This document shows positions 885 through 53,480 of a stretch of 64,000 nucleotides of DNA, in pieces. Each line of letters starts with the position of its first letter. Position 1 is the first letter of the stretch. Position numbers and translations under genes: made by a program. Below the pieces are notes generated by a model that made no database searches, was not told the DNA's origin, and saw nothing but the letters and a program-made list of their open reading frames with translations. The DNA is from Chrysomallon squamiferum (taxonomy: Eukaryota; Mollusca; Gastropoda; Neomphalida; Peltospiridae), in contig CM022668.1 in assembly GCA_012295275.1 (NCBI GenBank), forward strand, positions 387,157 to 451,156. The letters run 5' to 3'.

Positions 885-3404
885 CAGATACTGATGGCTT
901 TCTGGTTGTCCTGAAGAAGAAAAAGAAAAAAAAAATGTCAGTCAACAAATTCTAAAATATTTACTATGAAAATGGTATTTTTCAGTATCTTAATCACATG
1001 TCTGTATGTAAATTAACTATCTTAACAGACATTACATACATAAACTATGTACAAACCTATACCTACAGAAACAATGTTCACATTAATTCTATCACTTCAT
1101 CTACAACAAAATATGTACATATTCATGCATGCATAAACACACACATACAAAAAACAACAACAAACCTTTCAGTCTCTGCTGTTGATTTTTCAGCTGTTTT
1201 TTCAGTTGTTGTAGTATCAAGAACACAGTGAAAACCTTTAAATAAACAAAAACCAAATTCAAAAACCAGTACATGTTAAAATTGGTTTTATTTTATTTAT
1301 TTATTTTTGTACAACTAATGTCAAACTATAAACATTTTCAAGTTGATAACAGAAATTAATAAAACAGTAATGTATACATATAAAAATGTTTTTAATTAAA
1401 GTTAATAACACCACAATAATACAACAAGCCAGTTATTTAAAAGAAAATGTATTTAGACTATTTATTACATCACATTTATGTGTCACACATTATTATTTTA
1501 TTTCAGTAAAGGTTAATAATATCAGTGTAAATCTTTTTCCAGTACAGAACTTTGTCTTCAACATGGAGTTTGCCTATTTTTAATAATCAGGTTTTACAAG
1601 ATAAAACTCACTTGAATTGAGTTTCCCTTCACAATTACTTTTTAAGCACTTGCATGGTTCATTGAAGGTAAAACAGTGACAGTTTTCTGGTGATGGGGCA
1701 TACTGTTGTTGATAGTCACAGCTACACTTTGTGTCCTCTATAGGTGTACCCTCCTTACACATCTTTTTGCCCTTCGTTTCACATGTCCTGTGTCGGTGGC
1801 TGCACACAGGAAAGATAAACGAGTATGATGCTCTCCCCACTGGCTGATAGGACCCGGCAGGACACAATTCACACTTAATAGTCCCATCTGGATAGAGTCT
1901 AGCATACAATCCTGCAAATAAAATAGTAAAAACATATATCTGTGTATGTGTGTGTTATGACAGTAAACTGTTTTTATCTCACACAGTAGGGCCCTTAACC
2001 ATACCCTAATAGGGCCTTGATCAAGCTATGGAAAGTTTTCACAGTGATAGTTAGAGATACTGTTTGCTATGTTTATTTAACTTAGAAAATTGATCCTAAC
2101 TTATTAAACCACAGATCACAATTTAGTTTATACCTCTTGTAGAATTCGCAGGCAGCTATTTTTGGTTTGTTTTGTTTATTATAATAAATTATATTATTGT
2201 GCTATTAAGGAACAGTTTTGGAAAATACCGGTAACATACTGATTATTAACCTAAATAGCTTACTTCAGTACCATCCAACATCTCATAATTAACTGGTATG
2301 CATAATTAAAGTCAGTAAATATGTACCCATTCATTTCTGTGTATATATATGTGTATATGTGTAATATTAAACTCTGATATAATATTGTACACTTTGTTAA
2401 GCAAAATCAAGTGGCTAAGTGATGCTATATATTAATATGCATGTATGTAACACTATTGCTTGAATAAACTGTATTTTCAAAAGTACTTTAATACCAGGTA
2501 ATTATCAAAGCAACTATACAGAAAAAAAACCATAAGGTGCCATTTTTTCCAAATCTGCACAGTGTCATTTCTTCCGGGTGCCATTTTTTCCTACAACCAT
2601 TACCATATTAGGCAACTATATTTTGTGTTATTTTTGTTTAAGTCTGAAGGAGGGACAAATGGTTATTTTGTTTCTGTATGCTCTATTTTATATGTAGGTA
2701 CGTGACAAAATTTTCAAAATTATTAATTTCCTCAAACATTATACATCATTAGAAAGAGCAAAAAAATTACTTTTAAAATGACACCAGAATCTCTTTGATA
2801 GTATTGATATGAAAAAAGTTACGAATTGTTATCAGAATAAAATCTGCAGTTATTTGGACAAAGTGTGATTTATTTCTGTCATTTTGCAGGATAAACACTG
2901 AATATGTCTTATACCTTCAGTCCACTATACATGTATTATGTATCAAAATGAAGCATTTTATGAGTTCTAAACCTGTACTGTATTTCTAAACAAGTTGCTA
3001 AAACTCATGAATTTTAATTAATTAATTAACCAGACTAATTTATTGTATGCCAATATTTCTCAGCACCCATCTGAGTTAGTCAGTCACATAACCTAAAGTG
3101 ACTTGTTATTATCGATACTTTGACAAAAAGAAGTAGATATACACTACTGACCTGGAGCACACTCTCGTGGCTGGTGACAAAATGAAATAACGCTGGAATC
3201 ACCAGATTCCTGACAATGCAGTCTCTCAGTCTTCTGACAAAATTTCCACTCCAGACTCTTGTACTCTTGTGTTCCTACAGCTGGGCAGTAGTCTAAACCT
3301 AACACATTAACACAATCCAAGTTCTCAACACACAAAACTACTACAACAAACAATACACAGACTATTTCACGTGTACAACTATTCCATTTTGTCTGGACAA
3401 ACAT
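885..3404 (-). CDS. Gene A: TNFR-like receptor, 5' part only (runs off left edge)
   Basis: Exons read on the minus strand: 3152-3404 (ATG, signal peptide, first cysteines), 1612-1911 (300 nt, cysteine-rich), 1166-1235 (70 nt, end of cysteine-rich part and Thr-rich stalk), 885-910 (26 nt, RTTRKPSVSG stalk). Donors are GTCAGT, GTGAGT, GTTTGT and GTAATA; acceptors end in AG; phases 1-1-2-1 agree. The ectodomain has paired cysteines in TNFR style: KCELCPAGSYQP, a stretch of C-x2-H-x-H-R-x-C form, then KMCKEGTPIEDTKCSCD. By comparison with gene C the membrane exon lies about 220 bases left of base 1. The ATG used by genes B and C is followed at once by TAA here (3411-3416), so I start at the next in-frame ATG, 4 codons on; the hydrophobic signal core IVCVLFVVVVLCV is kept. 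Intron 1 carries about 1.1 kb of extra DNA absent from B and C. Family assignment is by cysteine pattern and architecture. Confidence 0.8.
1945..3125. other. Extra DNA in intron 1 of gene A
   Basis: Introns 1 of genes B and C are short, mostly ATGT microsatellite, while gene A has about 1.1 kb of unrelated AT-rich DNA between 'aacatat' and 'gacaaaaagaagtag'. It includes a doubled phrase around 2540-2590 (GGTGCCATTTTTTCC). I see no coding frame and no clear terminal repeats, so I only call it an insertion. Confidence 0.5.
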
Positions 3405-13394: not shown

Positions 13395-13425
<31 letters not shown>

Positions 13426-18891: not shown

Positions 18892-26944
<8,053 letters not shown>

Positions 26945-27903: not shown

Positions 27904-29304
27904 TTTTTGGCTTTGTTTTGGCTATATTTATCATTCATGTAAACTATTTAAAACGCTCAGTGAAATTATGATTTATTTCTTCTTATTTTGCTAACAGTGG
28001 AAAAAATTGTATTAATAATAATAATAAAAAAATATAATAAGTAGTAAAGAAACCAATAAATAAATACCTGCACATTCGGAATTCAGGTTATTTCTGGTAT
28101 TTTCGTGTTTTGGTTTCCCCGATGGGGATTCCCCTAATGATTACCAACCAAAGAAAAGTCATAGCGGTCGTCGTCAGTATTTGTAAAAGTTTACTTCAAA
28201 CAATTTGCGAACCAGCAATTACGAATATATTATTAATTAATTTTATACTAATGTACCGCGGTTAATTTTTACCGAAACCAGCAAGAACTGCAAAGGACCA
28301 AGTGAATTTATATTACGAATTTGTAACAAATTTGTTTGCTGCAATATACTTTAATTCCGATTTACTGATCATTATACCAGCAATACATTGTCTATCAGGT
28401 AACGTTACTGAAGATGATCATCATTACAGTCAATCACAATTAATAATATCTTTCAATGTATCGAACAGTCAGATGTGAAAAACAACAACAACAACAAACA
28501 ACAAACAACAACAACAACAAAATATATTTACAAATATATATATATATAAAATAAACAAACAAAATATACAACAACAAATATATTGCTGGTTGGTTATATA
28601 TATATATATATAGACAGTTATACAGTAAAAATAAACAAACATGACACGAAAGAAAACTGTTTTAAGTCCGTTTGAAATACAAACACAATGGCCAGGTCTC
28701 GCACTAAAACTAGGTCGATTTTTTATTTGTCAAAAGAAATTTTTTTAGCCGACAGTCATTTTCATGACACGAAAGTAACGTTTTTAAGTCCGTTTTGTCC
28801 ACTGCGTTGGCTTTGCAGTCTTGGTACGTAAGTTTCTGCGATGTTATTTTGTGTGACTGATATTATATTGTTTTAAAACCGAAATTATAGATATGTAATT
28901 TAAACTGGTAATGTTTCCTTACAGGAATGTTACTTTTGATGTGAGAGTACTTGACAGGGGAATGTGTTATATAAAAACACACAGTGATAACATGAAAGAT
29001 GGTTACAAATATAAAGACAGAACCAGATGCAGTGATCAGTCATAAAGACTGAATCGAAGTGTATATGTGTAATATATCAGAACATATTTAGTATGTGACA
29101 CTAGAGACTGAACTTAGAATTGTAGTTTTATATACTAGTCGATTAGGACGTAATTATGTTTGATGTTATCAACAACTGATATTATCATTATTGGTTTCAT
29201 TAGCATAATATCAATCAACAGAGCCTAAAATAAAAAGATAAAACAATAAAGAAAATATTTGAGAGCAACACTTCTTTTCAATAGTTTAATTAATTAATTA
29301 ATTA

Positions 29305-29371
<67 letters not shown>

Positions 29372-30240
29372 TGTGGATGTTTGTTCCAGTGCGGTTTTCC
29401 TGTGCAGGTTTACTGATGTCCAGATAACAGAGTGCTATAGCATCTGGTTCAACGTGGTGGGTGGGGGGGAAGCATTAACACATTAAGTTTATCTGTGCGC
29501 TGCAATTTTACCGCGCCGCTTCTTTTATTCCCTTTTGTGGTTCTCAGGTTTTTTTTCTCATGTTTTAGGACATCTCAACTTAGAGTCAACGTTAAAAGTA
29601 AAACTGCTGGTGTGATTAGCGATATACTATATAACATTCTGTCTAAAATAAGATATAGGGCACTTGAAGCAATATCACACACACGCGCGCGCGCGCGTAC
29701 TACAGTATATATATGCATGCACAGACCCATACATACATACACACATACATTCGTTTTGGATTAACTTAGTACGTGGTGTAATGACAAGTTTGACTACAAA
29801 ACGGAACAGTCTTATTAAGGTTTCTCAGTTTTGGCGGAAAGGCGTATGCAGCGTTTTAAAAATTCCTCTTGGGGAGAGAAATGCATTTTAAGCAGATCAT
29901 CGCAGCATATTAACCACAGAAGAATGACATTCTAGTCACTTTGTTTATCCTGTCTATCATATTGGTAATTTTACTCAACCACATTTGCATGACAAACCAG
30001 CCTGCAGATTAAAAATCAATTTATTTACGACTCGATGGTATCGAATATCAGCATATACCCAGTTAGATAGATTACCGTCGTCTAGCAAACTTGACAGCGC
30101 GTGCTCTTTATAAACATAATTTATGGTTCTGTCGTCTCTTCCCAAGGCATAAAATAGATTTAAGAAATTTTACAAAACGAGTTTTCAAAATCCAGGTACG
30201 TTCATGACATTCCATTTAACTTGATTCTTGTTAATTGTTA
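27850..30240. other. Intergenic DNA between genes B and C
   Basis: Holds an A-run and (AAT)n at about 27851-27902, (AAC)n at about 28480-28520, a long (TTA)n at about 29305-29371, and CACGCGCGCGCG at about 29683-29698. A stretch at about 28690-28850 is more CpG-rich than its surroundings. No gene is supportable here, except that 29782-29891 stays open and weakly protein-like on the plus strand. Confidence 0.4.
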
Positions 30241-30292
30241 GAGATTTACACTTATAGTATGGATGTATGTGTGTGTTTATATTTATGCATTT

Positions 30293-30454
30293 AGGAATAA
30301 ATATCCTGTTGCCGTATGTACTGGAGATAGACAATATTCGGGAGAGCAAAGTCCAGTGACGACGAAACTCGAAGGCACGGAACCATTCGCTCGCATTGCA
30401 GATGCGGACGACAAAACCTCTTGGACAGAAACAACAATAAATTTAACTTCTTAG
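30293..30454 (+). CDS. Possible orphan terminal exon, unrecognised
   Basis: After a plausible acceptor (tttatgcatttag) the plus strand stays open for 53 codons ending TAG. It has a composition much less AT-rich than its surroundings and a coding-like amino-acid mix: PVAVCTGDRQYSGEQSPVTT, then KLEGTEPFARIADADDKTSW. GTAAAA follows directly on the TAG. I do not recognise the family and found no partner exons, so it may be a relic exon of a lost gene or part of a transposon. Confidence 0.3.
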   Translation, partial: RNKYPVAVCTGDRQYSGEQSPVTTKLEGTEPFARIADADDKTSWTETTINLTS

Positions 30455-31016
30455 GTAAAAGCCGTCGTGAAGTATATCAAATGTGAACAAGATCATTCTC
30501 ACTTAGCACTGTTTTAACTGTGTGACGCGTTTGTTGTACGTCACTCACAAAATATTTCATTATTAATATTGTACTCATTACTGTGTTTATTCTTTACTGT
30601 TATTATTATTATGAGTTGAAGATTCCTTAACCGGAATTCCGAAATCAGAAACTTTTCCGAGCACCTGAAATTATTTTAAACCAAACTTAATTATCTTTCT
30701 TTTTGTTTTTGAGTTGGTCCTTATGTCTGAAAAGCAGATCAACAGTCATTTAGCTATTTCTAAAGACCAACATTATGAAAAGACAATTCTCAGTACTAAA
30801 TTGTAATTTATATCCGAACTCCCCCCAAAACAAGAAGAAGAAAACAAAAACACACAAAAACATATATCAACATATACAAAATGAGTGAAACTGATAGGCA
30901 ATTACCTAGACGATCTGGTGTTTTACTTACTTCTTTCCTAATGTGTGTGTGTATGTGTGTGTGTGTGTGTACGCGCGTTAAACTTCGATAATTTCAGATG
31001 GAAGGGGTCTGAAAAA

Positions 31017-31380
31017 GCAGCTTGAATTTCTTGATTTGTAGCCATAATGCAGTAGTCATGTTTGTTATGTTTTAACATTAAAACATAAAGTTCATTTCAG
31101 TTTTCAGTTTTCAAACGTTTAAAAAATGGTTACGAACAAAAACTAACGCATGCTCCCGGTGACGTCATATAATATTATCTCCCTTATTCCGGTTCCCCTA
31201 AACATTGTAAACTGTAACAATGTTAACCATAGCACCATTTATATACAACAATGTTGAAATTAAAAATCTCAATTTTTCTCTTATTCTTTTAACAAATTAA
31301 TTCTAGCATACATAGATCACGAGTTATGAAAAAAATGAAAATTACACAAGGACTTTATAAAAAATCTTTACATTAGTACA
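31017..31380. repeat. Dispersed repeat, copy 3 of 3, split
   Basis: The two ends match 17931-18130, but about 190 bp (roughly 31062-31250) of unrelated DNA lies between them, including CATGCTCCCGGTGACGTCAT. The insert begins and ends close to AATGTTGAAAT/GTTATGTTTTAA sequence; I could not fix a clean target duplication. Confidence 0.5.
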
Positions 31381-31555
31381 CATTACTACATCTGATAACG
31401 AATGTAACTGATGTTTACACCTTACAGATTTATTTCCCCTTATGTCTGATGTGAAATTCATTTTCTCATTTAAAAAGAATTCTGGATGCTAGGAATCACC
31501 ATCTCTCTTGATCATCAAGTAAGACATTGTAGGCCTACATGTATGCATAAAGTTC

Positions 31556-31798
31556 ACATATAAAAGTTTCCTGGGTATAATATTTTTTGTTTAGCCATAA
31601 TAGAGATTTAAAAAAATGCATACCTGCATGGATGATTGATACAATGCATTACAATGTACATTTTTTCTGAATTGATCATTCAGGTTTTAGTTAATCAGAT
31701 GTTAATGGCTGAAAAGGTGTTATTTTCATGTATGTGCATTTTTTAAATCTATATTGTGGCTAAACAAAAAATATTACACCCAGGAAACTTTTATATGT
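31556..31798. mobile_element. Palindromic MITE-like element, 243 bp
   Basis: Inverted repeats of about 68 bp with few mismatches: the left arm begins ACATATAAAAGTTTCCTGGG, the right arm is its reverse complement and ends TTTATATGT. Both arms contain ATATTTTTTGTTTAGCCA. The central part is unique and there is no frame. The superfamily is unclear because I see no confident target duplication. Confidence 0.7.
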
Positions 31799-31799
31799 T

Positions 31800-32212
31800 T
31801 TAGCTAACATGTGGGAGATTAAATTTCAATAAAGGTCATCTGAAGATCACGTGGTCCACACGGTCAGTTTCAAGGTCATAGCAAAGGTCAAAAGGTCAAG
31901 GTACTCCAGTATTTTCCAAGCTAAACAAAAATGGCAGATTTGGTATCCTTGTCATTTTGCCTTTCTAACAATACCAATTTTATGAAGATTGGCCCAGTAG
32001 TTCCTGAGATATGAGGGTTCTAAGGTTGGTGGTCACACCCATTTTTGGCAAAAATCTCAAAATTCGGTGGGCCGTATCTCCCACACCACTGGTCTGATTG
32101 AGCTAAAATTTCAGATTTGGTGCTGTGGGATCCCAGTCAACAAGTATACCATAAAAATCTGAGAAGGTCGGGTTTAAACCATTGGGTGATTTGACACGGA
32201 ATAACCCTAAAT
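31800..32212. repeat. Probable interspersed repeat, 3' of gene C
   Basis: A less AT-rich block (AAGGTCAAAAGGTCAAGGTA ... GTGATTTGACACGGAATAAC) that interrupts the 3' flank shared by B and C: homology to the gene B side resumes only after it, at about 32216. It has no open frame. It looks like a non-autonomous element but I could not identify its ends. Confidence 0.4.
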
Positions 32213-32431
32213 CATTTGGATTTCATATGTGAAAGTTAATTTAAGATCCAATCCATTGAATAAGAAGAACACGACTTTGGTTGATGATGTTTTGTCAGAT
32301 GCTGAATGAGACACTGATGACTTTCTGTTTCACAGTGTTTCATCTAACAAGTTCTCTTGAGACATTTATTTAACTTCTCATTTGGTGAGGAAATATAGTA
32401 TAATAGAATAACTAATCCTATACTCAAAGCC

Positions 32432-32628
32432 TCAAGTAATAAATGCATTTTCTCCAAATGTAGGAACCTGAAATAATATTATTAAGTTCATGTGTCAGAC
32501 ACTAAACAAAATTTAAAAATCTAATTAACTGACATGTATGAATGTATGTATATTTAATCATTGTGTGTGTTTGTGTGTCCATATTACATATAAACTGAAT
32601 TAATTTTTATTTATAATAATGCTATATT

Positions 32629-32661
<33 letters not shown>

Positions 32662-33112
32662 ATATTACATATAAACTGAATTAATTTTTATTTACAATAA
32701 TGCTATATTGGTGTGTGTGTTTAGAAAAAATATTTATCAATTTGTAAACTGCTAAGTATCAGTGAAAATAAAATATAAATTAATATACCTTTAATGATGT
32801 TTGCTCCTTTATGTCACCATCACAAGTCTGAAGTTTGAAACAGTTATAAAGTTAGTAAATATATCAATAAACATGTAGTGAGTTATAGTATCTGTAGTAT
32901 CTGTGTGTTTTTATGTGTGAAAACCTGGTCAATTTATTTGTGTATCTATGACACCTGTGTTTTTAGAAACGTTTTGTATGTGTATGTGTGTATGTATACT
33001 GGTAATAGGTGGAAAAAATGGGTAACTAGTTCTAAAATTAATTTTACAAATAAGAACAAATATTTCTTGACTGTGTTAATTGTTTATGTTTCTTTGCCAG
33101 TGTTTGCATGTA

Positions 33113-33166
<54 letters not shown>

Positions 33167-36100
33167 TTTACTAAAAATTATTTAATAATTTGTAAACTGG
33201 AAAGTATCAGTGACAATAAAATATAAATAAAAATACCTTTAATAATGTTTGCTCATTAGTGTCACCATCACAAGTCTGAAGTTTAAAACAGTTATAAAGT
33301 TAGTAAATATATCAGTAAACATGTAGTGAGTTATAGTATCTGTGTGTTTTCAATGTGTGATAACCTGGTCAATTTATATTTGTATCTATGGCACCTGTGT
33401 TTCTAGAAATGTTAGGCATGTATATGTGTGTATGTATACCAGTAATCGATGGAAAACATGGATAAATAGTTCTAAAATTAACTTTACAAATCAGAACATA
33501 TATTTCTAGGCTGTGTTGTTTATGCCTCTTTGTTGTTGTCTGCAGTCAAAATGAAACAATTGCTGTCATACCACAAAATTAATGCGATGAGTTTATTGTT
33601 ACTTTGTGATCCTCAAAGTGCAGTATTTTGCTGGATATTGCTAGTAATCATCCCTGTAATTTGACTTCACTCAGACTGCCCATGTTTTGGAAGTCATAGG
33701 CAATGTTAACAACTGAGTTACATACAACTCTAACACCTGAGTCACATACAACTCTAACACCTGAGTCACATACAACTCTAACACCTGAGTCACATACAAC
33801 TCTAACACCTGAGTCACATACAACTCTAACACCTGAGTCACATACAACTCTAACACCTGAGTCACATACAATTCTAACACCTGAGTCACATACAACTCTA
33901 ACACCTGAGTCACATACAACTCTAACACCTGAGTTACATACAACTCTAACACCTGAGTCACATACAACTCTAACACCTGAGTTACATACAACTCTAACAC
34001 CTGAGTCACATACAACTCTAACACCTGAGTCACATACAACTCTAACACCTGAGTCACATACAACTCTAACACCTGAGTCACATACAACTCTAACACCTGA
34101 GTCACATACAACTCTAACAACTGAGTCACATACAACTCTAACACCTGAGTCACATACAACTCTAACAACTGAGTCACATACAACTCTAACACCTGAGTAA
34201 CATACAACTCTAACACCTGAGTAACATACAACTCTAACACCTATGTAACATACAACTCTAACACCTGTGTAACATACAACTCTAACAACTGAGTAACATA
34301 CAACTCTAACACCTGAGTAACATACAACTCTAACACCTGAGTAACATACAACTCTAACACCTGAGTAACATACAACTCTAACACCTGAGTTACATACAAC
34401 TCTAACAACTGAGTAACATACAACTCTAACAACTGAGTAACATACAACTCTAACACCTGAGTAACATACAACTCTAACACCTGAGTAACATACAACTCTA
34501 ACAACTGAGTTACATACAACTCTAATAACTGAGTAACATACAACTCTAATAACTGAGTAACATACAACTCTAACAACTGAGTAACATACAATCTAACACC
34601 TGAGTAACATACAACTCTAACAACTGAGTAACATACAACTCTAACAACTGAGTAACATACAATCTAACACCTGAGTAACATACAACTCTAACAACTGAGT
34701 CACATGCAACTCCACCAGCTGAGTTACATACAACTCTAACACCTGAGTTACATACAACTCTAACAACTGAGTAACATACAACTCTAACAACTGAGTAACA
34801 TACAACTCTAACACCTGAGTAACATACAACTCTAACAACTGAGTTACATACAACTCTAACACCTGAGTTACATACAACTCTAACAACTGAGTAACATACA
34901 ACTCTAACAACTGAGTAACATACAACTCTAACACCTGAGTAACATACAACTCTAACACCTGAGTAACATACAACTCTAACACCTGAGTTACATACAACTC
35001 TAACAACTGAGTTACATACAACTCTAATAACTGAGTAACATACAACTCTAACACCTGAGTAACACACAACTCACACAACTATAACAACTGAGTAACACAC
35101 AACTCTAACAACTGAGTAACATACAACTCTAACACCTGAGTAACACACAACTCACACAACTATAACAACTGAGTAACACACAACTCTAACAACTGAGTAA
35201 CATACAACTCACACAACTCTAACAACTGAGTCACACACAACTCACACAACTCTAACAACTGAGTAACATACAACTCTAACAAGTGAGTAACACACAACTC
35301 ACACAACTCTAACAACTGAGTCACACACAACTCTAACAAGTGAGTAACACACAACTCACACAACTATAACAACTGAGTAACATACGTCAGTAACTCTCGA
35401 ACTGTGATGGATGTAAGATGAAACTGATTTTGAGCAAACGGTGATGTCTGTTCTGAGTGAACTCATAACATGGTATTTTGAGTAATAGATCAGAAACTAT
35501 TTCAGTGCTCATTAATATGAAATATTATTTTTACAATCAGTAATAAGCACATGAAAAATATATCGAATAGCAGTACATTAAAAAAATAGTATTCAGAGCA
35601 ATATTTCATGTAATAGATAAAGTACTATTTTTATTAACTCAGTAATTTACTATTAAATAATATTCTGAGTAATGACTAAATTTTGGTTTCAGTAATGATA
35701 AACAGCATTTAGAACATCTGATAAAAAAATAATTACTTGAATAACTGATAACAAGTATTTTGATTATCTAACAAATAGTATTTTGACTAATTAATAAACA
35801 GTATATTGATTACCTGATAGTATCTGTTTTGAGTAACTGACAGTGCTATTTCAGTGATTAATTAATAACATTTTGAGTAAGTGATAAACAGTATTTAATG
35901 TAACTCATAAACAATATTCTGAGTATCTGGTAACACTATTTTGAGTTTTCTTACTTGAAAACTTACTGTGCTTGTCTGTTTATCATGATCAACACACAGC
36001 AAAGGCTGAAAAATAAATTAAAGTGATTTAAGTAAATAAAAATATAAGCCTGCATGTATAAACTGAATTTATTTTTAACTATGATAATGATATATAGGTG

Positions 36101-36361
36101 TCTCTCTGTGTGTATGTATGGGTATGTAAATGTTTATTTACCAACAAATTATTTAACAATTTGTAAACTGGAAAGTATCAGTAACAGTAAAATATGAATT
36201 AAAATACCTCAGATAATGTTTGCTCCTTAGTGTCACCATCACAAGTCTGAAGTTTGAAACAGTTATAAAATTAGTAAATATATCAGTAAATGTGTAGGCA
36301 ATGAAAAAAGTGAGTTGTAGTATCTGTAGTATCTGTGTTTTTATGTATAAATAGTTTACAT

Positions 36362-36408
<47 letters not shown>

Positions 36409-39400
36409 CACTGATAATTATCTGTACAATTGTCATTATCATTATTTTTATCATAATAATCAACATTAAATAAGTTATTATCGCTAAACTATCCAAAGCA
36501 AACTTAAAAAAGACAACTAAAAAGAAAAAGAAAAGAAGAACAAAGAAACAAATTCCTCTGATACCGTAATTCTAATTTGTGAGTAGTTTCCTAACTGAAC
36601 ACACTGTGTTCCGCTACTGTTCACTATGTTGATCACTGTCTCTTGATCTGAATATCAAAATTACAACAACTGTTAATTATATTTTCCTCTTAAATAAGAA
36701 AAAAGAAAAATAACATCCACATTTTTTCAATATCCTAGAAATGTTTCGTTACAAATTAACAATACTTTACAATCTTTTTAATAGAGAATTTTTATGGCAA
36801 CACTATATTTTAAGATATTTATACTAAAATACATTTTTGGTGTCAAACACTGACTTACACTCAGAGACACACCAGTTCATATATATAAATGTATAATATG
36901 GTAATATCAATATATACATAAATACAGCATCTTTAGTTTCCACTTATTTCCTTACCATTATCCTTCTTACCTTTTCTAGAATCAGATGCTTTGTCTGTCT
37001 TGAAACCTCCTGAAATTTGAAACATAAATATTTTAACATTATGCATATTCTGATATTTAAAAAAACATGCTGACGGAAGCCATTAAACTGGAAGTACACT
37101 ATTTATATAAATTCAAAATGGCTGCCAGCAAGTCCTGTAGAGACCATTATCTCTTAAACAGCCTGCTCTAGACCCCATAAATGTATTACTGGCAGATAGG
37201 ACAGTGTCATTAAAGAACAAAAATGTTCCTTCAAAATTTTTGTGTGGCATCGCAGACAGCAGATAAGATGCAGGTGACATGAAACACACAATTTATGGTG
37301 ACAAATGATCCGAGATTTTATTTTTGGGTGCCAGAGATCAAAATATCAGTATACCAGCTGGATATGTTATAATATCTGAATTTTTACTTATTTCCTTACC
37401 TTTATCCTTCTTATCTTTTTTAGCACAAAATGTTTTAATCCTCTTGAAACCTCCTGAAATTTAAAAAGTAAATATTTTTACATTATATCTACTCTGATAT
37501 TTTAAAAATGTGTTGATGGAAGTGTTTCAACTGCAAGTACAAAATTTGTATAAATTCAAAATGGCTGCCACCAAGTCCTGCAGAGGCCATAAATGAATTA
37601 CTGGCAGATAGGAAAGTGAAATTAAAGAACCAAAATATGCTTTCCAAATTTTTGTGTGGCACTGCTGACAGCAGTAATTGACATGAATGACACAATTTAT
37701 CTGGACAAATGATCACCACTGTAATGTATGAACTTAGGTCAACTTTCTTTCCTGCCTCTGTTCAGATCATCTCTTATCTCAGTGCTGTTATTCAATCATT
37801 TACATGTTAGAACACAAGCAGTTTCATTCACTTTTACATATACAATGCTGACCCATCATTAGAGGCACAGAGGGGGATGGCATAAATGCTTATATTTTCA
37901 AGGACCTCTTGTTACACTTATTCCGAATCTTCATGTTCAGCATCAACAGTAACACAAGCAGTATTACTCCATAATGAACCAGTTGTGTAGAGTATCACAG
38001 TCTTCAATTTTATTCATGAGATACTTTCGTATCCATATTTGTCAGACACAGACATGTATTCAGTATTTATTTCTGAACCCATTCAAACCTGGTTTGAAAA
38101 GAAAACCTTTGTAAGTGATGTTTCTCTGAATCTAAACAAACTTCACACAGGTGGCCATTTTTTCTTAAACCTTCTGAAAAAACAACTTTGAGATCTGAGA
38201 AAAGGTACCAAAGGGATTCAGGCAGAAACCTTAAATTAAATTCAAGTGATCTTAACTGAAATGAGAGTGTTGAGTATTCAATTTGTGCAGTAATTTTAAT
38301 CATCCTTTGCTTTTTAGCATGCTCATTGTCTCTCTGGAACATCATAATTATGTCATTCTGAAGGCACATTTTTGTTCACCAATAATACATTTTATGCACT
38401 TTTTTTTACCCAAAATCATCAGAACTTTATGTAGATATTCAGATTGCCCTGCTCTCAAGTCTAACCAGAAGCAGCCATTTTGTTACAGGATATGCCATTT
38501 TTGGCATACATCTAATGGACTAGTTACAAAATAAATGTTTAATTAAGAAGTTAGATATTCTTACCTTTTTTATAACATATTACTCCAAAAGTGATAAATG
38601 CAACAACAATAACAGTGATGATACCAGCAATCAGACCAACAGTATTAGTTCTTTCTTCTGTTTCTAAATAAAATTGAAGAAGTATTTAAATATTAATTGA
38701 AAAATGTTTTCAACATAAATAATAAATAATTAAAAAAGGTAATTATCAAATTCCTGTTAAAAAATGAACTGAAAAGAACTGAATGTTTTTTGCATAAAAC
38801 CAGAACATGAATAAAGTGATTTGTCTATTTCTAATAAATATTACAAACTATTAAAAAATATATATATTTTATAATATCAGTGCTGGGAAAATGTTCTCTT
38901 TTTACCAGTCTTGACCAATTTGTGATCATTGGGCTGATGTTATTTTTGAAAAACATTGTTTACTGGTAATATTTTAAAAATATTTTTGATCAAAAGCATG
39001 CCATCATTTCTGTAATTAAAATAATTTTATTTCTAAACAGTCACAACAAATTAAACACTTTGAACAACTCCCACATTTACTGCATACATCTGTCAGTAGT
39101 GTTTTCTTTGTTAACATGAAATGAACATTGTATTAACGGAGTTAACATTTTGAATTAAGACTGACTCTGATGTATTCAAGTCAACACTCTCAGGTATTTC
39201 CTACAATGGTGATTACAAGCTGTGTGGAAAAAAAATAAAATAAAATAAAAAGAATTCACTAAGATAGGCACCAGTTTATCTGCTTTATATTTCTTTTTGG
39301 AGCAGGAATTAGCCTAAACCTTGATTTCTTAAAACATGTAGATGATACTGCTGCTCACAGTCATTAAGGGTTTGAGATAAGATATTTAATAACACTAAAA

Positions 39401-40777
39401 ATTAATGTCATATATTTAAGTAAGAATTTATCATCATCCAGTCATTGTTCATGTTATTAGTAGTTGTGCCATCAGTTTCTGTCAAATCCACTTAACCATT
39501 CAACCAACAAAACATTTGACATTTATTAACATTCAACATGATGTCTCTTTACATGCACACAAATAGATATATAGACAGACAAACAGAGATCAATAGACAG
39601 ACTGACAGACAGATAAAAAATAAAAAAGAGAGATAACAAAAGGTAAAGAAGTTTGATATTACCAGATACTGATGGCTTTCTGGTTGTCCTGAAGAAGAAA
39701 AAGAAAAAAAAAATGTCAGTCAACAAATTCTAAAATATTTACTATGAAAATGGTATTTTTCAGTATCTTAATCACATGTCTGTATGTAAATTAACTATCT
39801 TAACAGACATTACATACATAAACTATGTACAAACCTATACCTACAGAAACAATGTTCACATTAATTCTATCACTTCATCTACAACAAAATATGTACATAT
39901 TCATGCATGCATAAACACACACATACAAAAAACAACAACAAACCCTTCAGTCTCTGCTGTTGATTTTTCAGCTGTTTTTTCAGTTGTTGTAGTATCAAGA
40001 ACACAGTGAAAACCTTTAAATAAACAAAAACCAAATTCAAAAACCAGTACATGTTAAAATTGGTTTTATTTTATTTATTTATTTTTGTACAACTAATGTC
40101 AAACTATAAACATTTTCAAGTTGATAACAGAAATTAATAAAACAGTAATGTATACATATAAATATGTTTTTAATTAAAGTTAATAACACCACAATAATAC
40201 AACAAGCCAGTCATTTGAACAAAAATGTATTTAGACTACTTATTACATTACATTTATGTGTCACACATTATTATTTTATTTCAGTAAAGGTTAATAATAT
40301 CAGTGTAAATCTTTTTCCAGTACAGAACTTTGTCTTCAACATGGAGTTTGCCTATTTTTAATAATCAGGTTTTACAAGATAAAACTCACTTGAATTGAGT
40401 TTCCCTTCACAATTACTTTTTAAGCACTGGCATGGTTCATTGAAGGTAAAACAGTGACAGTTTTCTGGTGATGGGGCATACTGTTGTTGATAGTCACAGC
40501 TACACTTTGTGTCCTCTATAGGTGTACCCTCCTTACACATCTTTTTGCCATTCGTTTCACATGTCCTGTGTCGGTGGCTGCACACAGGAAAGATAAACGA
40601 GTATGATGCTCTCCCCACTGGCTGATAGGACCCGGCAGGACACAATTCACACTTAATAGCCTCATCTGGATAGAGTCTAGCATACGATCCTGAAAATAAA
40701 ATAGTAAAAACATATTTTAAATACATGTTTATGTGCATGTGCATATGTATGTATGTCTGTATGTGTGTGTATGTATG

Positions 40778-40811
<34 letters not shown>

Positions 40812-41150
40812 TGTGTGTATGTATGTATGTATAGACAGATTGACAGACAGGCAGACACAAAAAGAAGTAGATATACACTACTAACCTGGAGCACACTCTC
40901 GTGGCTGGTGACAAAATGAAATAACGCTGGAATCACCAGACTCCTGACAATGCAGTCTGTCAGTCTTCTGACAAAATTTCCACTCCAGACTCTTGTACTG
41001 TTGTGTTCCTACAGCTGGGCAGTAGTCTAAACCTAACACATTAACACAATCCAAGTTCTCAACACACAAAACTACTACAAGAAACAATACACAGACTATT
41101 TCACCTGAACAACTCTTCCATTTTGTCTGGACAAACATCACTGATTGCAT
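32432..41150 (-). CDS. Gene C: TNFR-like receptor with intracellular RHIM, 380 aa
   Basis: Thirteen coding exons on the minus strand: 40886-41150 (ATG, signal peptide), 40390-40689 (cysteine-rich), 39944-40013, 39663-39688 (stalk), 38565-38663 (membrane, GLIAGIITVIVVAFITFGVI), 37400-37453 and 36956-37009 (two 54-nt basic exons, each beginning GGFK), 36565-36647 (RHIM), 36208-36246, 35967-36005, 33237-33275, 32789-32827 (39-nt cassettes TCDGDTKEQTLSE, PLLCVDHDKQTST, TCDGDTNEQTLLK, TCDGDIKEQTSLK), 32432-32467 (VPTFGENAFIT, stop TGA). Total 1143 nt; every junction has GT/AG and phases close exactly. Signal core IVCVLFLVVVLCV. TNFR-type cysteines dominate exons 1-3. The tail has no death domain; it has a RHIM core VQLG with NYSQI after it. 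RHIMs are known in RIPK1, RIPK3, TRIF and ZBP1, and in cryptic form in fly PGRP-LC/LE and IMD; the link to amyloid signalling here is inferred. AATAAA on the minus strand at 32365-32370 could be the poly(A) signal. Confidence 0.85.
32550..32735. repeat. TG microsatellite in a duplicated block of about 80 bp
   Basis: A phrase with CATATTACATATAAACTGAA and ATGCTATATTGG followed by TG runs occurs twice in tandem, in the last intron of gene C. Confidence 0.8.
33117..33164. repeat. (TG)n microsatellite
   Basis: Pure TG run between two cassette exons of gene C. Confidence 0.95.
33708..35385. repeat. Intronic minisatellite of gene C, 24-bp unit
   Basis: About 1.7 kb of 24-bp units (TACAACTCTAACACCTGAGT plus CACA), with variants in blocks: CACCTGAGTCAC to the left, CACCTGAGTAAC in the middle, and CAACTGAGTAAC with CACACAACTC units to the right. 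The 24-bp length keeps both strands open, so spurious frames arise (LELYVTQV and TPESHTTL repeats). It occupies the same intron region as the array in gene B. Confidence 0.97.
36360..36405. repeat. (TA)n microsatellite
   Basis: CATA then pure TA run, next to the RHIM exon of gene C. Confidence 0.95.
36565..36647 (-). other. RHIM-encoding exon of gene C
   Basis: This 83-nt exon (phase 1 in, phase 0 out; acceptor gatattcag, donor GTATCA) encodes 28 residues. Its middle reads INIVNSSGTQ then CVQLGNYSQI. The RHIM consensus is [IV]-Q-[ILV]-G-x-x-[N]-x-[LIM]; here V-Q-L-G-N-Y-S-Q-I fits at every fixed position except Ser for Asn. The upstream I-x-N-S-S-G matches the I-Y-N-S-[ST]-G that precedes the core in RIPK1. 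The homologous exon of gene B has the same length and the same VINIVN and GTQ-x-VQ but lacks Leu-Gly. Confidence 0.7.
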
Positions 41151-41154
41151 GTAT

Positions 41155-41198
41155 AGTTGTCACTTTTTACACAATCAATTGTAACTTTTTACATGTGC
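41155..41198 (-). promoter_or_regulatory. Leader motif pair upstream of gene C
   Basis: Two copies of the same leader motif (41155-41172 and 41177-41198) lie directly 5' of the gene C start codon, spaced as in gene A. Confidence 0.35.
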
Positions 41199-42114
41199 AT
41201 ATACAAATTAAATATTTTTGTTTTTTCTTTTTGTTCTGTGTGTTGTCAGATGACAGTATTCTGGAAACACAAGAATATATTCTTCAGTCAGTTATTCCTA
41301 CAAGAAAATAATAATAAATATTATGTTATGATTAATATTAAGAATCAAATTTAATTATATTGGTATTTTAGAAATTATTTTTGACAGAAAGGATTATTTT
41401 GTTAAAATAGATATGTTGTCCTTCCAGTTCATCATGCAGAGACTTCTTTGTTAACTGCTGTACACACACACTCAATGTGATGGGAGAATGATCACTATAA
41501 AAACAGGAAGATAATATACAATAAGAAACAAAACTGCAATTTGGGTTGCAGATTTGGCTTAAATATATTTCATTAAAATGAGTAGACTATGACTACTACT
41601 ACTACAACTACTGTTTAGTTACATATATATTAACAGTAAATTACAAACCTGTTCAAAATATAAGTCGTCTGATTAGAAGTTAAGGAAATATTTCAAAATG
41701 ACTAGTAACTTCCATTACTAAGCCAAAGTAATTACCAGGAAATATATTTAAAAATAAACATGATTACTACATTGGGTCATTGTCAGGAACACAGACAATA
41801 TTATTTCTGTTCAGATGGTGACACTGATTGTGTGGGGTGTTACTGACATCACTACTTACAACATTGTACATTTTTTATATTTATGTGTATTTGTTAATTT
41901 ACATGTGTTGGTATTTGTATCTTCATAATAACATTAATTTTCTTCTTTAGAAATTAGTGTCTCAGTGATGATATGTCTTTAATATAACCAAAATAATAAT
42001 AATAATTACAGGAAGTTCATGTGTATATGTAATGAAAAGGCTTATGGTTCAATTATTATTAATGTGTTATGTATATATAAAGGATTTTAACAGAGACTTT
42101 AATACCAGGTAATT

Positions 42115-43010
42115 AGTTGAAAAAGTATTTAAATATTAATTAAAAATGTTTTCAAATTTACCAGCAACATAAATAATAATTAAAAAATGTAATACCAAAT
42201 TCATGTAAATCATGAACTGAAAAAGAACTGAATGTGAATTTTCACTCTAAAAGAAGAACACGAGGAAACTGATTTGTTTATTTCTAATAAGCATTAGAAA
42301 CTATTAAAAAAATATATATATTTTATAATATCAGTGCTGGGAAAATGTATTTTTTTTTACCGATCTTGACCCTTTTGTGATCTTTGGGGCTAAGGTTATT
42401 TTTAAAAAACATTGTTTACTTGTCATATTACTGGAGAGAGAGAGAGAGAGAGAGAGAGATCAAAAAAAAAAAAAAAAGAGATATAACAAAAGTTACAGAA
42501 GTTTTGTGTTACCAGATATGAATGGCTTTCTGGTTGTCTTGAAAAATAATATTAAGAAAAACATAATTGTCAGTCAACACATTTTAGAATATTTTCAGCA
42601 TCTTAATTATATCTCTGTATGTAAATTAACTATCTTACACACACATTACATATACAAACACATACACATACTATGTACAAAGCTATACATACACAATATA
42701 CACATTAATGCTATCACTTTATCTATAATAAAATAGATACATGTTCATGCATGCATACAAACATAAGTAGTCTCTGTTGTTGATTTTTCAGTTGTTGGTT
42801 TGTCAGTGGTTGTAGTATCAAGAACACAGTGAAAGCCTTGAAATAAACAAAAACTAAATTTAAAAACCAGTACATGTTAAAATTAGTGTTATTTTATTTA
42901 TTTACTTTTTAACAACTAACATCAAACTATAAACATTTTTAGTTGATAACTGAAATGAATAAAGCAGTAATATATACATATAAAAATGTTTTTAATTTAT
43001 GTTTTATACC
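42115..43010 (-). pseudogene. Dead partial TNFR-like copy (second copy of 4360-5270)
   Basis: Same fragment as at 4360-5270, carried by the long repeat. The exon-4-like piece is at 42513-42537 and the exon-3-like piece at about 42770-42837, with the same lost donor. It differs by a (GA)n tract at 42434-42460 followed by an A-run that is absent from the first copy. Confidence 0.65.
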
Positions 43011-43911
43011 ATGTAATTAGTTCTTGTTAACACAATCAGTAGAAATGATAACGGGCAGATATATTAGTATTAGTATGCAAGGTGTCCAAGTGCCTGAAAT
43101 AAACATGAGATCACATCCATTAATCTGTTGTCAACTAGGTGTTTATGTGTTCAAAGACAACAGAACCCCTGCTATTTAATAAACAATGAACTTAAAATTC
43201 CAAAATGAAGTTAATTACATTTGTTAATGATTACTTTTAACACATGGGTTTGGGTGAAACTGATATCAATTAAAACTGAATGAACTGCAAGATGTTCTTA
43301 AGTGATTTAATAATCACCTATTTTATATTGATAGACTATTTCATTAGTATCAAACTGAGTAGAACTATATTAATGGCATTACCAGTTTCATATTATGTTA
43401 CTTCTACTTGAACATATGATAACAGTATGGATAGAGAATGATATCATGTATAATAATATGGATAGGAGTTTTACTTATGGATAACTCCTCAAAGAGGACA
43501 TGACTAATGAACTTTGGCTGTTGATATAAATATTTAAATGAATGTAATAGACGGGTTCCAAGTGATGTCACAAAAAGGAAGTTGGCTATCTTTGGCACAA
43601 TGAAAGTGTTTGTTACTTATCAATCACAGTGAGGCATGGCATACAAGAGAAGTTGTACAATGCCAAAGAAAAAATAATGTTATTGTAACGTTGAGGAGGT
43701 TACAACAGATCAGTGTGATGTAGAAAAAATCCACTATTATGTCATTCCAGCTATAAAAAAACATCAAGGTGAAAAAATTGAGGAACTGAGCAGTGATTAT
43801 GGCTACAAAGTTGAATTAAAACATAGTTTACAAAAATCTAGCAAATGTTCAAATTTGTTCAGAACATTTTATAAACAGCATATATTTTTCAGCAGTAGTA
43901 GCATCATTACA

Positions 43912-43945
<34 letters not shown>

Positions 43946-44213
43946 ATACATACATACTTTTTTGCATGTTTAAACAATTGTTTTCCATGATAAGCAATAA
44001 TTAAAGTCTTGTGTGTGTGTATATAAACAAAAAGATATTTCACATTTACAGTTTGAGGATACTTTTCAGAAGTAATTTATGTCATGATTATGAATATGAA
44101 GACTTTGAACAATTGAGAAAAACAATGCCAATGCAGTTTTGCAAAAGTAGCCATAATTATACACTATTTTGAGATTTTCATTAAAAGACCCTCAAACATA
44201 CTGACAAGGGCAC

Positions 44214-45390
44214 AAAGTTGATCGAGTGAGAAACACCACAACACAGCTAAATATCTGACTGGCATTATCCCTCAAGCATCTATTGCTTTCACATCTCTAG
44301 GGTGGGTAGGGCATGTTAGTGACAAATATATTACTGAGCATTGTTCCTTTCTATCAGACATCATACCTGGTGATATTATTTCGGCTGTCACTGAATTCAA
44401 ATTGCCTAACAAATTGTTACTACAATCACATCCACGCTTTTTATTTTTATGCCATGGAATTGAAATTGCATAACTAATTGTAACTAGAATGGAATGGAAT
44501 GGAAAAAAATTAACGTGCTAATCAGAGCTAGCTGTTGTGAAGCATGTCTGCGACGGGCACGCTTTCTGACAGGTCAGCGGGCGTGTCCGTCGCTTAACTA
44601 GAATCACATCCACGGTCTTTTATTGTAGCTGCCAATTTTTTCTAACTCCATGGTGTTGTTATAAAAAGGGCTGGCGTTTGGCAATTAAGCAGCGAAGGAA
44701 AAGGGCAACACATTTTTTTGTTTTGTTTTTTGACACAAAAACAAACAACAATTCTATGAATTTATTGACTTACAGATTGATCGGTTGAACAGCCGGTGGA
44801 TCTACGGATGGAATGGCTGATTGACGGATCAATTTGAGTGGCCAATTAAATTAATAATTAAAAACAAAACTATACGTGCTGTACTTTCAGACCATACTAA
44901 CTCGTATTTTTTTTTTTTTAATTCTTCTCTTGTACATAATAAATATAAATAAGTTCATGTTCTTATTCCTAGCTGCAAATATTTATAACATCTTTTAAAT
45001 TAAAACAGAAAAATAAAATAAAATAAAATAAAATGTAAATAAGTTAACTATACTCTTGTTATTCTTTTTAGTTACAGGTGTTCACAGCATCCTTTTAATC
45101 AATAAAAAGACCATTGGCAACAAAAAAAAAAGAGAAAAAAAGTTGGAATTGTTGGACCAGAAGAAGGCAGCCAAAAAGAACAAAGAAATATCAGCACCAG
45201 CCGACAAGAGGACAAACAAACAGGACACAACCAACACAGACCCGGTGATGACTAGGAGAGCTTCAACGAGCCAGACAAGTACTTGAAACAAGGAGCGGAT
45301 AACGTGTACGAAACCTCGGAACCAGTTCATTACGATCCGATATGCTGGACACTCCCTTGTGTCCTGCAATCGTAACGAGAACCCACTCAA
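44214..45390. mobile_element. 1.18-kb segment present only in copy 2
   Basis: The flanks join directly in copy 1 at about 6523. The segment carries a transposase fragment (44228-44473), a TATAAAAAGG box-like site near 44660, a repeated phrase AACTAGAATCACATCCACG, and a Lys-rich frame 45056-45286 that I do not recognise. It has no obvious inverted ends; only a short AC(A) microhomology is seen at the junction. It could be an insertion here or a deletion in copy 1. Confidence 0.6.
44228..44473 (+). pseudogene. DDE_Tnp_4 (PIF/Harbinger, ISL2EU-type) transposase fragment
   Basis: The 81-codon open stretch reads EKHHNTAKYLTGIIPQAS, then IAFTSLGWVGHVSDKYITEH and CSFLSDIIPGDIISA. This matches the middle of DDE_Tnp_4 transposases: KHHNT-x-K, PxG-x-I-x-F-x-S-x-G-W-G-G, SD-K-x-I-T-E and PGD. 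The next motif, which should bring a catalytic Asp (L-A-D-x-G-F), reads SAVTEF, so the Asp is lost. The N-terminal part is absent. It is a dead relic. Confidence 0.75.
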
Positions 45391-45492
45391 ACATATGTTT
45401 TATGATTGTATAATGTATTATCAAGTCATCTGAATATCATAATTAAATAATTAACATGAAATATAACTTGTGTTGTGTTTATTTCTCTAGTG

Positions 45493-45882
45493 CAGTGATT
45501 CTCAACCGCCGTGTCGCGAAACTTTGTGACGAACACCTGAAAACACGGACAATGTGCACAAATCTCCGTTTCATGTTCTACTAATATGCCTTGGAGGAAG
45601 GAACTTCCTTTCTCCAGTGAATATGCACACATTCAAAGTGCACCAATCAGTGGCGGCCACCAACCTTTGCACCTTTCGCTCAAGGTCGATCAGTTGCCCA
45701 TGAGACGTCAGTGTGATAGGTTGTGTGTGTGGTGTTGTTCCGCACTGGTCGTGTGTGAGCGTGCGTAATGCCGATTGCCGAATTAACGATCTCATCATAT
45801 AATATTTAAAATTATTACTGTGTCGCGACAGTTTCATGCGTTCGTAGGTATGTCGAGAGTAAAAAAAGGTTGAGAAACACTG
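45493..45882. mobile_element. hAT-type MITE, second copy, 390 bp
   Basis: Same length, same ends and the same flanking CTCTAGTG (45485-45492 and 45883-45890) as at 6625-7014. It therefore inserted before the long duplication or haplotype split. Confidence 0.88.
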
Positions 45883-47064
45883 CTCTAGTGGATAGACAGA
45901 CTTATTGATTTATATAGATTTAGCGTTAATATTCCTTGTTAGCTGGCCCTTAAAGCACCTTGTTACCCTAGGCTGAGCCTTAATAAAATATCTAAGATGT
46001 TTAATGGTGTGGGCCCCATGACAACAGCATATAGGGGTTTGGCATATCGGACACATTGGGAAGTGTATCATACACTGTATGTGCTAGGACAGTGATTTTG
46101 TGAGCGACATATTTATAAATATAAATATAATATAATGAGTAACTAATGATAACTAATAATATAAATATTACCTACAATTTCACATTATCCAGATTTCCTC
46201 CCGTTACAATAGTAACAAATAATAAACAATAAATAGCTATACAGAGAGAATTCGGGTTATTTCTGATATTTTCATATTCTGTCTTCCCAGTTGGGGATTA
46301 CCCTTATCTTATATTCGTTTATCGCACGTCAGTCCTTTCAAATAAATAGTTTCCGGTCTCAGTAAAACTGTTATTATAAAATAAAACATGTGTTTCAGAA
46401 CTGTAGCAGAAATAAAATTTCGGTTATATAATTGAATTTATTTAAGAAAAATAATATTTGTTATATATAATATTATAACACATCGGACATGTTTGTTCGC
46501 TAGCTCAGCAGATGCATGAAAATCAAATTTTTGATATCTGTTTATTCCGTTGTAGTCATCTCAAATTTGATATTTTATAATTAATCTCAATTTTAGAATT
46601 TGTTTTCTTGTTAATAGTAAATTTTGAAATATTAGGCCTAATCACTATTTAAAAAAAAAAAAAAAAAAAATCACATCCGCAGTATCGGATGTATTTACTT
46701 CTGTCATGACGAGCAAATTTGTGTTATTTTCAGATTCGAGTCGTTCATGTTTGAGACCGGTTATTGGCAGCACAAATCTGTTAACAATTAAAATCTAGAT
46801 AAAAAATCAAACCCTTTCATGTAAGTTTAAAGTTATTCCTGTTTGAAATAGTATATCATAATCTTATGCTTGGCTATTGAAAATCAAAATATTAATGCCA
46901 CATACTTCCCTAGTACAGAGTAGAATTTGCAGGCACAGGCTTTATTATTATAAAAATATATTTAAGAACACGGGTTCTTAACTGTTAGGGTACTAAAAAT
47001 GGACTATATAAACCACTTATGTCTGACCTATAGACAACTAAATGCTGTGACATAAATAACATTG

Positions 47065-50000: not shown

Positions 50001-50470
50001 TTGTCATATAAATTTGAAGAAGTAGTTCTTAAATATTTAAAACAAATAAATAAATAAAATAAAAAAAATATTGCTCATTTGGTCATTATGGTCCAATATA
50101 CCTTTGAGAAATATAACAGACTGAAAAAACAGCATCAGAAATTCACAGTAATAAAAACTTTATTCACAAAGAGATGAAAACAACTAGCACAATTGAAAAT
50201 AGATTTAGAATTCTAAAATATACTGGACTGCAAGGCAGAACCCAAACAGACTGGATGATTTTTCAGAAAACAATTGTTTCAGTACAAAAATTGGCAGCTG
50301 CAGTTTGTGTGAAAGAAGAGTGAAAGAATATTTAAGGAAGATAAAGAAACCATATAGTAAAAAAATGAACATAACAACAGCAAAAGCTGTTTTAACTAGT
50401 AAGTGCATTCCTAAGTATCCAGTCTCATTTTTATACAGGCCAGAAATGTTAAAGAAATACTGAATTATCT
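47065..50470 (+). pseudogene. Decayed unrecognised gene or transposon, second copy
   Basis: Near-identical to 8230-11890, with the same internal stops. The 290-bp difference joins two pieces here, so one frame runs 48718-49062 (115 residues, MANSLKNRKKLQ ... KGTHFCIVHFNVLDKIIVWQ). Shared stops show that decay predates the duplication. Confidence 0.4.
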
Positions 50471-50637
50471 TAACAAAACAAAATTAATAAAAAAACAACA
50501 ACTTAACAATAGCAAAAGCTGTTTTAACTAGTAAGTATATTCCTAAGTATCCAGTCTCATTTTTATACAGGCCAGAAATGTTAAAGATATACAGAATTAT
50601 CAATTTTTTTTTTCTTTATAAAAATGAAATAAAGTTA

Positions 50638-51073
50638 CAGTTGAACCTCGGGTTACGAACTTACTTCGTTCCAGAACTCGCTTCGTAAACCGAAACGATG
50701 TCAGCCATATTGGATAGGGTATAATAATTTTAAAAAAGCAATAACATTTTATGATTTTAAAAAATGCGAGCGCTCAATCTCAGTGCAAAAGCTTTTTGAG
50801 CTGCAACTGCTTATCGAAGACTAAAGGCCCTAATTCATGATATATTTTTGCTATAGGGCATACCTATAATTCTTACTTTGACGGCGGTTTTGACGTAAGC
50901 ATCTATTCTTATCTTTACTAGATGTTGGCGTCAAAAGACAGCTTGTCGTGGCGCGTCGCTGTAGTTCGTAACGCGGAACATTATTCGTAAACCGAGACAG
51001 AAATTACCCAAGATCACGGTTCGTTATCCGATTTGTTCGCGTTTCGAGAGTTTCGTAACCCGAGATTCCACTG
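50638..51073. mobile_element. Mariner/pogo-type MITE, second copy, 436 bp
   Basis: Same ends, length and TA flanks as at 12061-12496. It keeps TTACGAAC at the left end where copy 1 has TTATGAAC. Confidence 0.8.
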
Positions 51074-51939: not shown

Positions 51940-51970
<31 letters not shown>

Positions 51971-53280: not shown

Positions 53281-53480
53281 NNNNNNNNNNNNNNNNNNNN
53301 NNNNNNNNNNNNNNNNNNNNNNNNNNNNNNNNNNNNNNNNNNNNNNNNNNNNNNNNNNNNNNNNNNNNNNNNNNNNNNNNNNNNNNNNNNNNNNNNNNNN
53401 NNNNNNNNNNNNNNNNNNNNNNNNNNNNNNNNNNNNNNNNNNNNNNNNNNNNNNNNNNNNNNNNNNNNNNNNNNNNNNNN
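53281..53480. other. Assembly gap, 200 N
   Basis: Exactly 200 undetermined bases, a conventional placeholder size. It separates the end of the long repeat from satellite DNA, so the two sides may not be neighbours in the genome. Confidence 0.99.

Follow-up and report, generated by a model that had tools for sequence, protein, structure and literature searches.

PGRP-LC is a membrane receptor of type II topology that carries a cytoplasmic amyloid motif and recruits a death-domain adaptor. Vertebrate TNF receptors reach the RHIM kinases via death-domain adaptors. An amyloid motif is described in flies on both PGRP receptors and IMD (accessible part of PMC7885112), and fungal NLRs with a PP motif and bacterial NLRs with a BASS motif are reported to signal from receptor to effector through a short shared amyloid motif (accessible part of PMC7889193). 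The consensus of the RHIM core tetrad is given as (V/I)Q(V/I/L/C)G (excerpts of PMC9444067 and PMC9182532), and the tetrad of TRIF itself as VQLG (PMC9182532, same excerpt). The accessible excerpt of a nemertean study reports IMD, whereas a RHIM was detected neither in the transcriptome examined nor in the genome of Notospermus (PMC9835746).

Here we analyze five related genes (A to E) whose closest working likeness is PGRP-LC/IMD signalling, in which a receptor itself bears the cytoplasmic amyloid motif. Their predicted topology, however, is opposite to that of PGRP-LC, and they have a Cys-rich ectodomain instead of a PGRP domain (no PGRP ectodomain was found by Pfam in the joined gene C protein). 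With the TNF receptor superfamily they share a type I single-pass layout and a Cys-rich ectodomain, which in genes A-E has a C..GTPIEDTKCSC-like end, but they lack a TNFR_c6 match and no death domain was found in the tail. Compared with TRIF, RIPK1, RIPK3 and ZBP1, the core tetrad is the same (VQLG in TRIF as in A and C) and changing flanks surround a kept tetrad, as in primate RIPK3; those proteins are adaptors, a sensor or kinases, whereas genes A-E would be membrane receptors, and exon 8, which carries the motif, is unscored by the Pfam RHIM profile and has a longer stretch before the tetrad. We give even chances to the reading that genes A-E are a diversifying receptor family with a RHIM-like tail able to nucleate amyloid.

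A five-copy gene family on one contig

The window (the whole stretch of DNA analyzed) is a 64-kb piece of contig C4, and the genome searched comprised 404.6 Mb in 22 contigs. Its receptor genes with introns, together with Death-domain and nSTAND3-ankyrin genes on other contigs, point most probably to an animal source. The peptide of exons 8 to 10 gave nine genome matches at E<=10, all on contig C4 and all inside genes A-E. Ectodomain exon 2 identified five places at E<1e-60 and one unrelated weak place. An ectodomain match on contig C14 (31% identity, E 0.15) was rejected, as no receptor-like frame was present there. Genes A, B and C are encoded on the minus strand; the plus strand of the same contig carries D and E, ∼0.25 Mb from C. 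Gene A extends across the left boundary of the window. Open models were obtained for all five genes, with ten exons in C and E and nine in A, B and D, GT donors throughout, an AG acceptor at each exon past the first, and no stops. The parts of A and B in the window are:

885..3404, minus strand: gene A, exons 1-4 (3404-3152, 1911-1612, 1235-1166, 910-885); the remainder lies left of the window, and exon 8 reads VIYIVNNIVNNIVNNSGGTQCVQLGENSEIINK
20874..26932, minus strand: gene B, open nine-exon paralogue model; the exon at the RHIM position (21555-21473) lacks a RHIM tetrad

In gene A (C4:385828-385757), exon 6 is cut short by a deletion, so that its first part runs directly into the last part of the following intron; this fusion has no stop and continues the frame into exon 7, and either acceptor may serve.

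Genes C and A are carried by a tandem duplication (38782-53280 vs. 1-14734, spacing ∼38.5 kb) whose blocks are 96-99% identical apart from several large indels. The duplicated block stops at 53281-53480, the one gap that the assembly has in the window; a long satellite array (53481-64000), its copies offset by ∼169-base steps, adjoins this gap. Minisatellite arrays lie downstream of exon 10 in gene C (33707-35385) and gene B (19261-20285), and past these arrays come degenerate exon 9 copies.

Exon anatomy of gene C and its ectodomain

The gene C model has ten exons bounded by GT donors and, from exon 2 onward, AG acceptors; joined, they give an uninterrupted frame of at least 339 residues:

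40886..41138, minus strand: exon 1, signal-peptide-like N-terminus and first cysteines
40390..40689, minus strand: exon 2, Cys-rich ectodomain, TNFR-like, without Pfam match
39944..40013, minus strand: exon 3, Thr-rich stalk
39663..39688, minus strand: exon 4, stalk
38565..38663, minus strand: exon 5, transmembrane segment
37400..37453, minus strand: exon 6, basic juxtamembrane exon
36956..37009, minus strand: exon 7, basic juxtamembrane exon
36565..36647, minus strand: exon 8, RHIM-like cytoplasmic exon, (G)DQETVINIVNSSGTQCVQLGNYSQIRIT
36208..36246, minus strand: exon 9, 13 residues; DNA identical in all five copies
35967..36005, minus strand: exon 10, spliced on at GTAAGT, or read through 23 more residues to a stop

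Exon 8 has AG/GT borders and is entered in phase 1 and left in phase 0, the first residue of DQETVINIVNSSGTQCVQLGNYSQIRIT being divided by the junction. Both endings of exon 10 (splice at GTAAGT or read-through to the stop) are present in all five copies. By mean hydropathy, every copy shows a pair of pronounced hydrophobic maxima (mean >2.5), at residues 14-32 and about 221-246, the third peak staying <0.7; the membrane segment of gene C reaches a mean Kyte-Doolittle value of 2.87 at residues 227-245. Given this signal-peptide-like peak and one membrane segment, genes A-E are predicted to be type I single-pass membrane receptors with a Cys-rich ectodomain.

The tail was searched for recognised domains. 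Pfam detected no Death domain in the joined protein of gene C; the three-frame translation of 28000-36000 likewise lacked one and gave sub-threshold matches only. No TRAF-binding motif was seen when the tail was compared by eye with consensus motifs. A Protocadherin match to gene C (8e-5, below the cut-off) covers the membrane segment and was put down to composition. The joined protein gave no match at E<=10 among 659 candidates and no relative from another species, and PDB searches, by sequence and by profile, returned one weak irrelevant match or none.

The ectodomain was compared with TNF receptors in several ways. At E<=10, the Pfam TNFR_c6 profile (PF00020) matched neither the joined protein of gene C nor, taken separately, the ectodomains of C and D and a piece of C; none of the 70 places found by this profile in the genome lies in genes A-E; and a strict TNFR pattern is absent from all five copies. 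When six TNFR_c6 exons of the same species were used, the gene C ectodomain showed 30% identity over 88 residues to one of them, and hhalign profile-profile comparison gave a probability of 13.7%. None of 1,000 shuffles with fixed cysteines attained the 34.3-bit TNFR alignment score; of 1,000 full shuffles one did, but so did one of three Cys-rich GCC2-like non-TNFR controls. AlphaFold2 on exon 2 alone (3 sequences, those of the window copies) yielded a mean pLDDT of 34, unusable for a fold. "TNFR-like" is therefore a fair description of the gene C ectodomain, as far as the alignments go, rather than a statement of membership. Elsewhere on the contig (C4 1.15-1.21 Mb), a cluster of Cys-rich repeats is weakly matched by TNFR_c6; its assignment as TNFR was rejected, as three short stretches look GCC2/GCC3-like by eye.

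An earlier note on this DNA had joined three of the gene C exons (38663-38565, 37009-36956 and 36647-36565) into a receptor with TNFR-type cysteines. These exons agree with our model in coordinates, strand, AG/GT borders, frame and peptide, and the signal peptide and one membrane segment that it proposed are in keeping with the hydrophobic, signal-peptide-like N-terminus and the one further strong hydropathy peak. The in-frame tail exon also stands; the exon at 37453-37400 was absent from the note, and there are four further copies. The TNFR assignment was not borne out by profile: 19 cysteines are present downstream of the signal peptide, but the TNFR_c6 search of the joined protein that it had proposed gave no match.

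RHIM likeness of exon 8

The earlier note had read exon 8 of gene C as a RHIM and proposed a Pfam search as its check. The Pfam RHIM profile (PF12721) had no match at E<=10 to the joined gene C protein or to the C, B, E or A peptides, and the window is not among the 11 places found genome-wide at E<=10; HMMER filters discard most weak matches, which bears on this result. When a profile was built from seven RHIM peptides of the same species (contigs C10 and C3), the open reading frame of exon 8 ranked second of the 2,883 in the window (6.7 bits, E=1), and of the four isolated peptides added to the same search E scored 9.9 bits and C 7.5 bits. The number of shuffled peptides reaching the real score was 5 for E, 27 for C, 405 for A and 1,047 for B (per 5,000 each). 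The E peptide also drew a CDtoxinA match below the cut-off (E 0.089), which was attributed to chance. These scores are suggestive of a RHIM likeness beyond chance for C and E taken singly, are uninformative for A, and point to its absence in B and D; RHIM membership of exon 8 is not secured by them.

The exon 8 peptide reads VINIVNSSGTQCVQLGNYSQI in C, MINIVNSSGTQCVQIGNYSQI in E and VIYIVNNIVNNIVNNSGGTQCVQLGENSEI in A. The tetrad is VQLG in A and C, VQIG in E, and VQTE in B and D, so that the RHIM consensus is matched in three of the five copies (A, C, E) and unmatched in B and D. In the six-frame translation of the window, [VI]Q[VILC]G occurs 11 times per 119,177 residues, with 7 of the 11 in one satellite; at this rate a match in one given exon of 28 residues is a ∼0.2-0.3% event. 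Over the four distinct variants of exon 8 the invariant positions are I-x-IVN--GTQ-VQ.

The sequence around the tetrad bears on a competing explanation, namely that exon 8 is a real, fast-evolving tail under diversifying selection in which VQ[LI]G is fortuitous, the tail docking another partner or being moulded by a pathogen antagonist, with no amyloid step. We consider this quite possible, though at somewhat less than even chances. It is favoured by the marginal profile scores, by the two copies without a tetrad, and by conserved residues that are not centred on the tetrad (7 of 9 invariant residues precede it); the stretch from the INIVN part to the tetrad, longer than in the RHIMs of contig C10, also counts against a RHIM. 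On the other hand, a canonical tetrad is retained in three copies amid changing neighbours, and the G-x-x-S-x-I that follows it parallels the G-x-x-N-x-[LFM] of the RHIM exons of the same species, which counts for a RHIM. Thus, of the earlier proposal, the position in the tail and the canonical tetrad stood, whereas the missing Pfam match, the longer stretch before the tetrad and its absence from two of five paralogues spoke against it.

Candidate partners elsewhere in the genome

Two of the 11 places found with the Pfam RHIM profile are above the Pfam cut-off. On contig C10 (16.19 and 17.23-17.63 Mb) there are five RHIM exons with VQIG or FQIG, reading like KPTVNIHHCGNVQIGAENKLI. In the one copy scanned, the RHIM (weak, E 0.067) is followed on the same strand by nSTAND3 (3e-24) and many ankyrin repeats. 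A first exon starting MDD(K/Q)N lies upstream of the RHIM exon in all five copies, and an open frame with a STAND-type P-loop lies no more than 6 kb downstream in four; for the fifth, no STAND-type frame of at least 150 residues was found within the ∼5 kb examined. The scanned copy has a stop within the STAND frame, and the 16.19-Mb copy is open for 1,634 residues. The C10 genes would be animal STAND receptors with an N-terminal RHIM and the architecture of fungal amyloid NLRs, and are possibly more interesting than the finding in the window.

Contig C3 (1.602-1.626 Mb) carries three tandem RHIM exons (IQIGNNNEM, VQFGNNNVM and TQIGNNNLM), each followed within ∼1.5 kb by Death-domain-like frames. 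The stretch scanned with Pfam covers two of the copies, and a Death domain (3e-10) is recognised following one of them; the remaining Death-domain-like frames were identified by eye, and one frame is broken. Human RIPK3 with TQIG is reported not to activate NF-kappaB (accessible part of PMC12119088). With their exons joined by prediction from the genome, the C3 genes may be IMD- or RIPK1-like adaptors.

Among the remaining places, LQLGHNNHL at C1:46003606-46003647 has the best single-place RHIM profile score (20 bits). The match at C7 12.059 Mb was rejected, as its open frame spans 16 residues and a Pfam scan of one strand stretch gave no domain, and for that at C7 30.229 Mb the motif filter returned nothing.

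The strongest support for reading the gene C tail as RHIM-like comes from this genomic context of RHIM exons beside Death-domain and nSTAND3-ankyrin exons.

Divergence of exon 8 among the copies

To compare the copies, exon 8 was set against its flanking intron. Between A and C, exon 8 differs at 10 of 83 bases and by a 27-base in-frame insertion, and the flanks at 2 of 574 (0 of 256 compared bases upstream and 2 of 318 downstream; Fisher p=3.4e-8). Between A and E the values are 13 of 83 vs. 3 of 566 (p=4.2e-10), and between C and E 3 of 83 vs. 3 of 601 (p=0.026); these pairwise comparisons share ancestry and are not independent. Exon 8 is identical in B and D, and when B or D is compared with A, C or E it shows no excess over the flanks (p 0.11-0.27).

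The exon 8 changes between A and C are 9.5 nonsynonymous per 66.8 sites and 0.5 synonymous per 17.2 sites, and those between C and E are 3 and 0. In the ectodomain (exons 1 and 2) the nonsynonymous to synonymous changes are 11 to 1 (A-C), 16 to 2 (C-E), 24 to 4 (B-D) and 13 to 3 (A-E), a per-site nonsynonymous excess that is modest, and nil in A-E (0.029 vs. 0.027). Exon 10, which is not RHIM-like, differs between A and C at 4 of 39 bases, all nonsynonymous. Nonsynonymous change is hence not special to exon 8, because exon 10 changes likewise; together with the ectodomain exons it adds to the case for a fortuitous tetrad, in that selection need not concern a RHIM. These data suggest, as the simplest reading, diversifying selection on exon 8 and perhaps on other parts. 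For primate RIPK3, rapid evolution is reported at positions within the RHIM and beside it, with the tetrad exempt (accessible part of PMC12119088). The A-C pair is similar, its flanks changing around a kept tetrad; C and E differ by one tetrad change, L to I.

Alternatively, the exon 8 difference among A, C and E could be a short tract of gene conversion or an allelic tract, with the copy number partly a haplotype duplication in the assembly. We regard this as unlikely. In its favour, A, C and E share exons 4, 5, 7 and 9 without a single difference yet diverge in other parts, the kind of mosaic that conversion typically leaves, and the assembly gap (53281-53480) marks the limit of the duplicated block. 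Nevertheless, divergence is confined to exon 8, with the 256 upstream and 318 downstream intron bases nearly identical, and the genome search gave no further donor exon; moreover, A and C lie on one stretch with no N gap between them and differ by several large indels. That exon 8 is never spliced into the receptor mRNA, through a gene-model artefact or a dead gene, is very improbable: although the exon has only 28 residues and the models were predicted from the genome, there are five open models with conserved splice borders, a frame-keeping insertion, and an A-C change limited to exon 8.

Discussion

Under the favoured reading, a diversifying receptor family with a RHIM-like tail, we infer for genes A-E the splicing, amyloid formation, partner binding, ligand and outcome as follows. 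Each receptor would have a short cytoplasmic tail that lacks any recognised domain and bears a single short motif of amyloid type, akin in form to the RHIM. A ligand would cluster the receptors and bring the tails close enough to build or seed a cross-beta assembly, and partners with a RHIM would then be recruited to it: (i) most likely the RHIM-Death-domain proteins of contig C3; and (ii) possibly the RHIM-nSTAND3-ankyrin proteins of contig C10. By joining the tail stack, the RHIM-Death-domain proteins would lead to NF-kappaB-type or death signalling. Rapid change of exon 8 in A, C and E with the RHIM-type tetrad kept may tune the choice of partner or allow escape from antagonists, and B and D, without the tetrad, may represent a second specificity or decoy or inhibitory receptors.

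The earlier note had supposed that the receptor nucleates RHIM signalling directly, bypassing the death-domain adaptor. Such a bypass is conceivable; as the C3 RHIM exons adjoin Death-domain exons, recruitment of an adaptor would be at least as likely. The fungal and bacterial amyloid NLRs resemble the C10 genes in architecture; the NLRs are cytosolic, whereas genes A-E are predicted membrane receptors. In the literature covered (titles and abstract beginnings among the matches listed, with subscription papers mostly outside this scope), we found neither a TNFR bearing a RHIM of its own nor a RHIM-nSTAND gene from an animal.

A further reading is that the A/C/E-type and B/D-type tails form a specificity code, seeding different assemblies with the RHIM-Death-domain adaptors and the RHIM-nSTAND3-ankyrin proteins, such that membrane and cytosolic sensors converge on one RHIM amyloid. 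This we hold to be rather doubtful; if true, it would be an animal counterpart of the fungal amyloid NLR signalosomes.

With a motif that varies between otherwise nearly identical receptors, RHIM specificity could be put to a direct test by means of peptides. If a Cys-rich receptor bears such a motif of its own, alongside RHIM-Death-domain and RHIM-nSTAND3-ankyrin genes in one genome, it would reveal how amyloid signalling from a receptor is put together beyond flies and mammals.
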